From NCBI GenBank assembly GCA_029882215.1, contig JAOULC010000002.1, forward strand, positions 81,681 to 145,680: a DNA stretch of 64,000 nucleotides. Direction: 5' to 3'. The DNA is from Gammaproteobacteria bacterium. GTDB lineage: Bacteria; Pseudomonadota; Gammaproteobacteria; SZUA-229. The notes beneath the pieces were generated by a model, which ran no database searches, had not been told where the DNA came from, and saw only the letters and a program-made list of their open reading frames with translations. Positions 46,948 through 50,688 of this stretch are shown here, in pieces. Every line of letters begins with the position of its first letter. Within the stretch, counting starts at the first letter, position 1. The position numbers and the translations under genes are program-made.

Positions 46948-47421
46948 TTAACGACATAGACGAGCAGCTACACAAGTACCAGACATCGTCCAGATTACAT
47001 TACCACTTGTAATAGCTGGTGTAAGGATATATGTAGTTGCTGCTGTTTGACCGAATGCGCCTGCGTAACTTGTTGCAGTGATTACGCCGTTAGCTGCTAC
47101 TGCAATAGTATCAACAGCATCAGCACGAGAACCAGTAACGGTAGCTGCAGGAATATCACCTAGTCGACCTGGTCTAGCGATACCGCCAGCACCATTCTGA
47201 CAAACAGATAAAGGAGTTGGATCTGAAGAGCGTTCCTGTGCACACATTTCAACGCCTAGCTTATATGATGCAACGCCTGTTTCCATTACTTTAAACTCAG
47301 AACGCTGGATGAACGCTTCATACTGTGGAATAGCGATAGATGCAAGAATACCGATGATCGCAACTACGATCATTAATTCGATTAAGGTAAAACCTTGTTG
47401 TGCTTTTTTAGCGATGTTCAT
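46948..47421 (-). CDS. pilA: Type IV major pilin PilA
   Basis: A 157-residue prepilin. The 10-residue basic leader [10 protein letters not shown] is cut before Phe11; the mature N-terminus [24 protein letters not shown] is the canonical helix with Glu at mature position 5. Four Cys are present, the last two near the C-terminus in GTCVAARLC, compatible with a small disulfide loop. The body is rich in Ala, Thr and Gly, as in structural pilins. It is preceded by a sigma-54 promoter and upstream repeats, with GGAG eight bases before ATG 47421, and followed by a strong terminator. PilD, PilC and PilB are encoded next in the same direction. Confidence 0.95.
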
Positions 47422-47486: not shown

Positions 47487-47503
47487 AGCAGGGGTTGTGC
47501 CAA
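47487..47503 (-). promoter_or_regulatory. Sigma-54 promoter of pilA
   Basis: Read leftward, TTGGCACAACCCCTGCT has the -24 GG and -12 GC at the exact sigma-54 spacing and differs from the consensus only mildly in the -12 part. Transcription would start near 47476, with a 55-base leader. PilR, a sigma-54 activator, is encoded just upstream. Confidence 0.85.
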
Positions 47504-47591
47504 TGTTGATGTGTTTTACTTTATCTTTATAAATCAATTGGATACATAAGAATCAGCTGGAGTAATTGTGCGGGCATGAGGTATATTTCAA

Positions 47592-47630
47592 TGTCCAAAC
47601 TGTACAAAACTGTACAATTTTGTACAGTTT
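47592..47630. promoter_or_regulatory. Phased TGTACA repeat array, probable PilR enhancer of pilA
   Basis: AAACTGTACA occurs as an exact tandem pair (47597-47606, 47607-47616) and once inverted as TGTACAGTTT (47621-47630). This places TGTACA at 47601, 47611 and 47621, exactly one helical turn apart; a weaker TGTCCA is at 47592. The array is about 120-150 bases upstream of the predicted pilA start, the usual place for a sigma-54 activator. PilR binding is inferred. Confidence 0.65.
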
Positions 47631-47653
47631 AGATAATGCTAATATTCTAATTC

Positions 47654-49009
47654 TTAATCGATATTGAACTTTTCTAGCCGATAGAGTAACTGGCGTCTTG
47701 TTAACCCCAGTGCTTTAGCGGTCGCTGTTTTATTCCAGCGAGCCGCGTCCAGTGCGTTAATGATGGATTGTTTATCCATCTCAGTCAGTGATTGTTTGCT
47801 GGCGCTGATGACTTTAGGAGCAGGGGCTGCTGTGTGAGCGTTGTTGTTACTGAGATTGAGATCTGCGCTATGAATGGTGTTGTTTTCGGCCAAGGCTATA
47901 GCGCGCTCGAGGATGTTTTCCAGCTCCCGCACATTCCCGGGGTAGGAATAAGTGCACAGGGCATCGAGTGCATCTTGGGTTAGCTGGGGGGCTTCGATTG
48001 CTAATTTAGTGCTGAGTTTAGCTAATAGCATCTTTGCTAATAGCGGGATGTCGCTGCTTCTTTCACGCAGGCTGGGGGTTTTTAGTTCAATGACATTGAT
48101 TCGATAAAATAAATCTTGCCGGAATTGCGCTTTTTCCACCAATTCAGCCAGGTTTTTATGACTGGCGCTGAGAATGCGTACATCCACTGAAACTTCCTGA
48201 GTATCCCCCACCGCTCTTACGGCTTTCTCCTGAATAGCCCGCAGGAGTTTAACTTGCATATGTAGGGGTAACTCAGCCACCTCATCTAAAAATAATGTGC
48301 CGCCATGGGCTAGTTGAAACAAGCCTTCTTTGTCATGAGTGGCGCCGGTGAAGCTGCCTTTTTTATGACCAAAAAACTCACTTTCCATTAATTCGGCAGG
48401 GATGGCACCGCAGTTAATCGGTACGAAGCGGGCGCTTTTACGCGGGCCCTCATTGTGTATCATTCGCGCGGCCAGTTCTTTACCACTGCCTGATTCACCA
48501 TAAATAAACACCGGTGCCTGACTGCGGGACAGTTTGTGTATTTTTTGTTTTAACGCTTCAATAGGGGGAGATTCACCCAGCAATTGCGAGGCTGGTTGTG
48601 TTGTATTAACAGGCTCGTGCTGTGCTGTGGCTGCGGAATGCACCGGTAATTTAATGGCAGAATTAACCAGGTTGCGTAATATATTGATATCCAGTGGTTT
48701 GGATACGAAATCAAAGGCGCCTGCTTTGAGCGCGCGGACAGCTGACTCCATATTGCCATGAGCGGTGATCACCGCAATCGGCAAATCGGCTTTGGTTTTC
48801 TGGCAATATTCGACCAGCTGAATGCCGTCACCATCCGGTAAGTTCATGTCGGTGAGGCATAAATCAAAGTGTTCTTTATCAATTAATGATATGGCATCGG
48901 AAAAATTTAATGCTGAGTTTGAATCCAGCCCCATACGACCCAAAGTGATTTCGAGTAACTCGCAAATATCTGGCTCATCATCAACAACTAATACTTTTTT
49001 TCTATTCAT
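47654..49009 (-). CDS. pilR: Sigma-54-dependent response regulator PilR
   Basis: A 451-residue NtrC-type activator: receiver (about 1-120) with acceptor Asp in CLTDMNLPDGDG, AAA+ domain with Walker A GESGSGKELAARMIHNEG and the sigma-54 contact loop GSFTGATHDKEG, and a Fis-type helix-turn-helix at the end (NKTATAKALGLTRRQLLYRLEKFNID). It forms a pair with PilS, 20 bases upstream, and is predicted to drive the pilA sigma-54 promoter next to it. Confidence 0.94.
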   Translation of the reverse strand: MNRKKVLVVDDEPDICELLEITLGRMGLDSNSALNFSDAISLIDKEHFDLCLTDMNLPDGDGIQLVEYCQKTKADLPIAVITAHGNMESAVRALKAGAFDFVSKPLDINILRNLVNSAIKLPVHSAATAQHEPVNTTQPASQLLGESPPIEALKQKIHKLSRSQAPVFIYGESGSGKELAARMIHNEGPRKSARFVPINCGAIPAELMESEFFGHKKGSFTGATHDKEGLFQLAHGGTLFLDEVAELPLHMQVKLLRAIQEKAVRAVGDTQEVSVDVRILSASHKNLAELVEKAQFRQDLFYRINVIELKTPSLRERSSDIPLLAKMLLAKLSTKLAIEAPQLTQDALDALCTYSYPGNVRELENILERAIALAENNTIHSADLNLSNNNAHTAAPAPKVISASKQSLTEMDKQSIINALDAARWNKTATAKALGLTRRQLLYRLEKFNID

Positions 49010-49029: not shown

Positions 49030-50688
49030 TTAATGATCGGTGTCTTGGCTGGTTGTGATATCCACATGATGTGTTTTCTGGCTGGCAACGAAGGCAATTC
49101 GGAAACAGCTACCCCCGGTGGGCAAAGAGATATAGTGTATTTTAGCACGATTGCTTTCGATCATTTCTTTTGTGATGTATAGACCCAGCCCAGTGCCTGC
49201 CGGACTGGTGGTGAAAAATGGGTCGAAGATTTGTTGTACCAGATCAGCGGGTATGCCGCTCCCATTATCGATGATGTCGATATAAGGGTGACGTGAATCA
49301 AGGGAAACACCGCCCAGAATTTGAATTCGGACGTGCTGTTTTTGCCCTGAGGAATGCAGTACCGCATTGCTACACAGGTTCCATACGACCTGATGTAGCT
49401 GAGTGCTATCGAAAAGAATATCAGTGTCTGCTGGATTAATCTTAATGCTTAACTGCTCTGCGGGCAGTGCCTGGGAACTGCAAAATTCAGTTTTAAAGTC
49501 GCTGAGCCATGAATGGAGATTGATAGTGTCTCTGTGGCTGGTATTCTGCCTTGAAAGCTGCAGAATATTCTCAATGGTGTGGTTTAGTCGCTGCACCTGA
49601 GTATTAATAATGTTGCCGAGTTTGATGTCCGATGGGTCCTCCAGCGTCTCAGTTAGTAATTGTGCGGCATGTTTAATAGCACCCAGAGGATTACGAATTT
49701 CATGCGCAATACTGGCGGTCAAACGCCCCAGTGAGGCCAGTTTTACTTCCTGAAAGCGCAGATTAAGCTGGGCGGCGTCTTCCAGAAAGATAATGATCTC
49801 ACTGTCCTGACGGTTGATATCCAGCCGGCTCATACCGGGTTGTAACTCGGTTAAGCCTCGCTCCTGTTTGATCGGTAGCTGATCCAGATTGGGTTGTTTT
49901 ATCCATTCCGTCAGTCGTTGATAAAGTGGTGCAGACACAGCTGACAGGTGTGGCTGATTGTCCAGTTTCTGGTTTCCCAGTAACACTTCAGCCGCTTCGT
50001 TCGCCATGTGGATCTGGCCGCTCGGCAATACCACAATAATGCCGGTGTGCATGTTTTTAATGATGTGCTCATTGAGTTTTTCCAGGTCGGCCAGTTCGGC
50101 GGTCGTCTGACTGGCCAAAGCCTGTGACTCACGTGAGCGTGTAGAAAGGGTGGACGCTATGCTCGCAGAACTGAACAGTAAGGCGCCAAGAATACCGGCT
50201 TTGGGGTAATTAATGACTTCAGTCAAAACAAAATAGCTGGAATAAAACTGCTCTATTAACACTGCTAAGGAGGCGAGTGCTGAAATAAAATAAGCATTTT
50301 GCTTTGATAAAAGCACGCTGGCGGCGGTGACATTAACAATCAGCAGCATTCCAAGGCCACTTTCAATGCCGCCGCTAGTGTGCATCAAGATAGTGATGGT
50401 AATGATATCGACAATAGCCTGCAGGCTGACCTGTTTTTTAAAGTCAGGTGAACGGGTATAGGAGGCATAAATAAAGGACAGGCTGATAGCGATGTACAGC
50501 AGGCAGGTCCAGAAAAAAAATGAAGGCTGCTGTGTACCCAGTATCTTGCCGGTAAAATCAGTGACAAAAAAGAGCGCAAAAATGGAAGAGAGAAATAAAC
50601 GGTAATAATTAAGTAGTCTGAGTGGGCGCCAGGTCAGCATATCCTGCAACTGTGCCTGATCAGAAGTGATGCTGTTAATACTTGGCAT
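49030..50688 (-). CDS. pilS: Sensor histidine kinase PilS
   Basis: A 552-residue sensor with about six N-terminal membrane spans (to about residue 180) and almost no periplasmic loops, a PAS-like domain (about 205-300), a dimerisation/phosphoacceptor domain with SIAHEIRNPLGAIKHAAQLL, and an ATPase domain with DNGSGIPADLVQQIFDPFFTTSPAGTGLGLYI. The membrane-embedded sensor fits Pseudomonas PilS, which monitors pilin in the inner membrane. It is encoded directly before pilR on the leftward strand. Confidence 0.92.
   Translation of the reverse strand: MPSINSITSDQAQLQDMLTWRPLRLLNYYRLFLSSIFALFFVTDFTGKILGTQQPSFFFWTCLLYIAISLSFIYASYTRSPDFKKQVSLQAIVDIITITILMHTSGGIESGLGMLLIVNVTAASVLLSKQNAYFISALASLAVLIEQFYSSYFVLTEVINYPKAGILGALLFSSASIASTLSTRSRESQALASQTTAELADLEKLNEHIIKNMHTGIIVVLPSGQIHMANEAAEVLLGNQKLDNQPHLSAVSAPLYQRLTEWIKQPNLDQLPIKQERGLTELQPGMSRLDINRQDSEIIIFLEDAAQLNLRFQEVKLASLGRLTASIAHEIRNPLGAIKHAAQLLTETLEDPSDIKLGNIINTQVQRLNHTIENILQLSRQNTSHRDTINLHSWLSDFKTEFCSSQALPAEQLSIKINPADTDILFDSTQLHQVVWNLCSNAVLHSSGQKQHVRIQILGGVSLDSRHPYIDIIDNGSGIPADLVQQIFDPFFTTSPAGTGLGLYITKEMIESNRAKIHYISLPTGGSCFRIAFVASQKTHHVDITTSQDTDH

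Follow-up and report, generated by a model that had tools for sequence, protein, structure and literature searches.

A TGTACA box array ahead of pilA as a probable lineage-specific respelling of the PilR enhancer

The array and the pilA promoter

A phased run of TGTACA boxes lies between pilR and pilA in this gammaproteobacterial genome, which raises the question of what reads these boxes and why their letters differ from those of relatives. The window (the whole stretch of 64,000 nucleotides analysed) carries on its minus strand, in this order, pilS encoding a sensor kinase (49030..50688), pilR (47654..49009), the array, a -24/-12 promoter and pilA (46948..47421). The product of pilR is a response regulator of 451 aa with sigma-54 AAA+ and Fis-type (HTH_8) domains, and pilA encodes a type IV pilin of 157 aa, recognized through NCBIfam and the Pfam N-methylation motif.

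Four boxes compose the array (47592..47626, minus strand). Read towards pilA, they are TGTACA at 47626-47621, 47616-47611 and 47606-47601 and TGGACA at 47597-47592, starting at 124, 114, 104 and 95 bases ahead of the -24 T. A sequence-only reading had listed them as TGTACA at 47601, 47611 and 47621 and TGTCCA at 47592, which we confirmed. Its placement of the array ahead of a sigma-54 promoter and directly behind pilR was also right: the boxes are 90-124 bases from the pilA promoter TGGCACAACCCCTGCT (47487..47502, minus strand, read 47502-47487), which is conserved in relatives, and the array begins 27 bases beyond the stop of pilR, which ends at 47654. As is expected of a PilR enhancer, the array lies upstream of a -24/-12 promoter that serves a type IV pilin gene. 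An IHF-like site with one mismatch (47532..47544, minus strand) was found between array and promoter, 42 bases upstream of the -24 T.

A spacing of exactly one helical turn and a tandem unit with one inverted copy had also been claimed. The three TGTACA boxes are indeed 10 bases apart, but the fourth box is 9 bases from its neighbour. The copies are present, AAACTGTACA at 47597-47606 and 47607-47616 and the inverted TGTACAGTTT at 47621-47630, but TGTACA is itself palindromic, so that "inverted" applies to the AAAC flank alone. An inner palindrome of 15 bp, TGTAC-AGTTT-GGACA (47592..47606, minus strand), begins 104 bases upstream of the -24 element and has the geometry and register of TGTCA-N5-TGACA in relatives; the outer pair, TGTAC-AAAATT-GTACA (47611..47626, minus strand), spans 16 bp with a spacer of 6 instead of 5.

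TGTACA alone showed no enrichment: the window has 9 copies, where 15.8 were expected. The phased triple occurs once even if as many as 3 mismatches are allowed, against an expectation of 0.01, and with the expectation this low a chance origin was rejected.

Position in relatives and in the genome

Nearly all other relatives with pilA behind pilR contained alternating TGTCA/TGACA boxes about 10 bases apart, with the core TGTCA-N5-TGACA. In the family, the starts of this core fall into clusters about one helical turn apart, at roughly 104, 114 or 125 bases ahead of the -24 element. Through 21 family loci (the window and G017 variants counted), the distance from core to -24 element has a mean of 109 and a standard deviation of 6, whereas the distance to the pilR stop in family loci ranges from 34 to more than 1,000 bases (standard deviation 306). 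An IHF-like site with at most one mismatch, 42-43 bases upstream of the -24 element, was found in about half of the family loci, including the window. The window array has helically phased repeated boxes at the relatives' position, but no TGTCA/TGACA box typical of the family was found upstream of its -24 element. On the sequences compared, these letters are not defining across PilRs, as the xRA and xGA PilRs described below use others. The same place and the same phased distances in relatives are the reason for considering the element the PilR enhancer, and to judge from sequence the array is almost certainly a PilR docking array ahead of pilA. The proposal of a distinct enhancer code holds for the box letters, TGTACA against TGTCA, but not for the phased alternating layout, which is general in the family; likewise, conservation in relatives extends to position and layout across the family, but to spelling in one same-genus genome only.

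Several relatives deserve description. Locus L027 (G025), with an ordinary LRQLRYR helix, has the mixed array TGTCA-cttttTGACA-aaatTGTACA, 114-95 bases upstream of the -24 element. It may be an intermediate between spellings, and its letters indicate that TGTACA can occur without helix change, at least as outer box. In L164 (G007:C13:378300-378900), pilA and pilR are divergent instead of tandem, the helix is TPRQLSYRI and the boxes are TGTTA/TGTCA. A small multi-pass membrane protein that by eye resembles the type IV pilin accessory proteins TfpX/TfpZ is encoded on the pilS side of pilSR in L009, L010, L012, L020, L023 and L027.

Among 54 genomes of the order searched, the same triple was found in only one other, the same-genus G002. 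A block around the array (47591..47646, minus strand) is identical at 54 of 56 positions and the -24/-12 element at 15 of 16, while identity is 63% between array and promoter and 61% past the promoter; this conservation points to strong selection on the array. No pilR was found in the G002 assembly, where the contig with the array runs on for only about 275 bases past it.

The palindrome might instead work as RNA, with a hairpin closing the pilSR transcript at its 3' end and serving as a terminator, processing or stability element. It begins close behind pilR, 27 bases past the stop, and the AT-rich minus-strand RNA of 47580-47660 folds to -22.1 kcal/mol (z = -5.1), but any phased palindromic array folds into a hairpin whatever its role. 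No T run follows the stem and no terminator was found, the conserved distance is that to the promoter and not that to the pilR stop, and in G002 no pilR is seen in the roughly 275 bases that follow the array up to the end of the contig, so that we consider an RNA role very improbable. An intrinsic terminator of pilSR, which requires a GC-rich stem and a T run, was rejected on the AT-rich stem and the missing T run.

In the 3.4 Mb genome the phased triple occurs once, and the sole other TGTACAN{3,5}TGTACA pair is inside an unrelated ORF. None of the other 17 of the genome's 18 consensus -24/-12 sites has a comparable palindromic operator. A wider regulon search with TGTCA-N5-TGACA in G000, G001 and G003 revealed a convincing promoter at pilA only, and in two of these three genomes the number of matches was close to that of the control. 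Because the other 17 sites are without such an operator, pilA may be the only direct target of PilR in this genome, and regulator and operator would then be free to change jointly; such a switch may be easy, as the genome yielded no second array-bearing promoter and the pilA site adjoins pilR. Elsewhere in this genome (L037, G000:C24:1-6000), a reverse-transcriptase-like ORF of 392 aa, an ORF of unknown kind of 519 aa, a phosphoribosyltransferase-like ORF of 291 aa and an ORF of 121 aa were recognized by eye, and this cluster may be a mobile or defence island.

That the boxes belong to another pilA regulator using TGTACA was also considered, as TGTACA is a simple palindrome which several unrelated regulators could read. 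However, no other array exists in the genome, and the array takes the place of the PilR-type operator, register included, with no TGTCA/TGACA box left upstream of the promoter; we hold this reading to be extremely improbable. Pho-box and NifA-box readings were rejected because box letters or context do not fit.

Recognition helix and box letters

The window PilR is orthologous to those of relatives, with receiver, sigma-54 AAA+ and Fis-type HTH domains and a best same-genus match of 73-74% identity. Its HTH_8 DNA-binding domain comprises residues 408-448 (47666..47788, minus strand). Compared with PilR of G001, identity is 86% in the receiver, 81% in the AAA+ and 59% in the DNA-binding domain, against 88%, 91% and 87% between G001 and G003; over the C-terminal 47 residues, the window protein shares 59% and 57% with these two same-genus PilRs, which share 87% with each other. 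The changed helix stretch is encoded by codons R438-R439-Q440-L441-L442 (47684..47698, minus strand), where relatives have L-R-Q-L-R. The window helix is LTRRQLLYRL versus ITLRQLRYRM in G001 and G003, both of which have TGTCA arrays, and the changes in window numbering are L438R and R442L.

The RRQ helix is rare; just one more PilR that has it along with a readable pilA promoter was found, in another genus (G017). Its helix is LTRRQFRYRL, its boxes are TGGCCA at 144, 126, 113 and 104 and TGTCCA at 95, in the same register as in the window, and its identities with the PilR of same-genus L020 are 74/85/54% (receiver/AAA+/DNA-binding); in G017 as in the window, the DNA-binding domain is by far the most diverged. 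G353 (PilR TRRQMRFR) was left out, its GC-rich pilA-like locus having no recognisable -24/-12 promoter. A scan of about 85,000 genomes for NKTA..LGxTRRQ returned only the G017 record (G017:C127, a contig of 14,819 bases) and a NifA-like protein with TSRQ. The TGkmC palindrome, a pattern defined post hoc from the window and G017 arrays, occurs in these two only among the 109 loci surveyed.

In Fis, Arg85 is the first recognition-helix residue and contacts a conserved guanine in Fis complexes (PMC4784862). Through our PilR-Fis alignment, the leucine-to-arginine site was matched to Fis Arg85, and a new arginine there would suit boxes whose half-site acquires a C/G pair on its inner side (TGTCA becoming TGTAC or TGGCC). 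There are two RRQ cases only, and because their boxes are unlike each other (TGTACA and TGGCCA), cause is not separated from coincidence.

The array could be a PilR array in which TGTACA is drift tolerated by an ordinary helix, the helix change being unrelated. L027, whose LRQ helix goes with TGTCA, TGACA and one TGTACA box, and G007, whose TPRQLSYRI helix is still accompanied by TGTTA/TGTCA-like boxes, would agree with this. However, every window box was respelled at once and is then constant in G002, the TGkmC palindrome is absent from the 109 loci except the window and G017, and the window PilR DNA-binding domain is disproportionately diverged; drift is therefore regarded as unlikely.

For the survey, 370 genomes of the class were used; a PilR match was obtained in 230, and 109 pilR-pilA pairs were read, pilA being assigned as the first pilin gene downstream. 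Three residues of the recognition helix vary with the box letters: the xRQ(LRYR) helix goes with a TGTCA-type palindrome (39 of 50 loci, versus 7 of 59 elsewhere), the xRA(LRYR) helix with TGACG-N5-CGTCA (17 of 40 versus 0 of 69) and the xGA(LRYR) helix with TGCTG-N5-CAGCA (6 of 9 versus 0 of 100), in counts where related genomes are not independent. Counted by family, TGTCA-type palindromes were found in 17 of 21 xRQ families and 2 of 24 xRA families. Among the seven TGTCA cases outside xRQ, two are xRA and five belong to a small "other" class with serine or valine at the third position; serine there goes with TGTCA. The TGTCA-xRQ association is present in each of three GC strata, so base composition is not the explanation. 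Six loci (L084, L100, L105, L107, L111 and L124) have an F/Y-G-A-LRY helix with TGCTG-N5-CAGCA ahead of pilA, a third spelling.

In a hold-out of 23 usable later loci, the rule was followed with one exception, about half having no exact palindrome at all. Taken alone, with too few loci to decide the matter, the hold-out gave a non-significant 5 of 9 versus 3 of 14 for TGTCA (p=0.11) and a modest 3 of 8 versus 0 of 15 for TGACG (p=0.03). A literature search, with most subscription journals outside its scope, returned no PilR footprint with TGTACA letters and no PilR helix-box rule.

The helix-box association, like the location, conservation and register of the array, is read from the sequences themselves. 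We lean somewhat towards a readable code for PilR and the pilA enhancer, in which the positions of Fis 85, 86 and 87 are matched with inner bases in TGNNN-N5-NNNCA. On this view, respelling of the pair has happened repeatedly in nature, including two cases in the family that came with a leucine-to-arginine change. For the window, it is quite probable that the array is the pilA upstream activator sequence read by PilR, and that box and recognition helix were respelled as a pair in this lineage. We conclude, with an RRQ class of two members, that the known PilR enhancer would have been respelled specifically in this lineage, in step with a helix change; the TGTACA switch looks like a natural co-change of regulator and DNA site. 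Of greater interest than the window array is the broader helix-box rule.

Proposed action and known systems

As dimers, PilR would occupy paired boxes that share one face of the DNA and lie about 95-125 bases ahead of the -24 element, most likely with two dimers on the box pairs 124/114 and 104/95, dimer orientation being ambiguous in alternating arrays. The DNA separating array and promoter is probably bent by IHF, which is usually placed between a sigma-54 promoter and its enhancer (PMC7962754). PilR would then contact sigma-54 RNA polymerase at -24/-12 and open the promoter. The box change from TGTCA to TGTACA would have come alongside the helix change (L438R, R442L). We infer the binding of PilR to the boxes, the looping, and the helix change as cause of the new preference.

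PilR controls pilin synthesis in many Gammaproteobacteria, with binding sites poorly mapped beyond a few species. A helix-to-box rule predicts sites from protein sequence and would explain why the Pseudomonas consensus fails elsewhere. The switch appears recent and inside one genus, with G001 and G003 ordinary, G000 (the window) changed and G002 sharing the new array, so that the order in which regulator and operator changed can be tested directly. If the code is real, this linked and apparently single-target layout would be a compact natural system for the co-change of a regulator and its site without loss of function.

PilR of Pseudomonas aeruginosa has a four-site C/GTGTC consensus. TGTN11AGA and nearby GTCT elements are cited as hallmarks of its PilR-pilA system (PMC6058289). 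The window resembles that enhancer in having several boxes, predicted to be read by PilR, upstream of the pilA -24/-12 promoter; it differs in the box TGTACA, in boxes about 10 bases apart that pair into palindromes of 15-16 bp, and in the helix TRRQLLYRL. NifA, a sigma-54 activator of the same superfamily, has the upstream activator sequence TGT-N10-ACA, which the window TGTACA-N4-TGTACA fits; unlike in NifA systems, the array adjoins the gene of a receiver-domain PilR and has pilA as its target, and relatives use a palindrome of 15 bp. Compared with the PilR operators of its own GTDB family (TGTCA-N5-TGACA), the array is alike in place, register, layout, promoter and orthologous PilR, and unlike in box letters and recognition helix.
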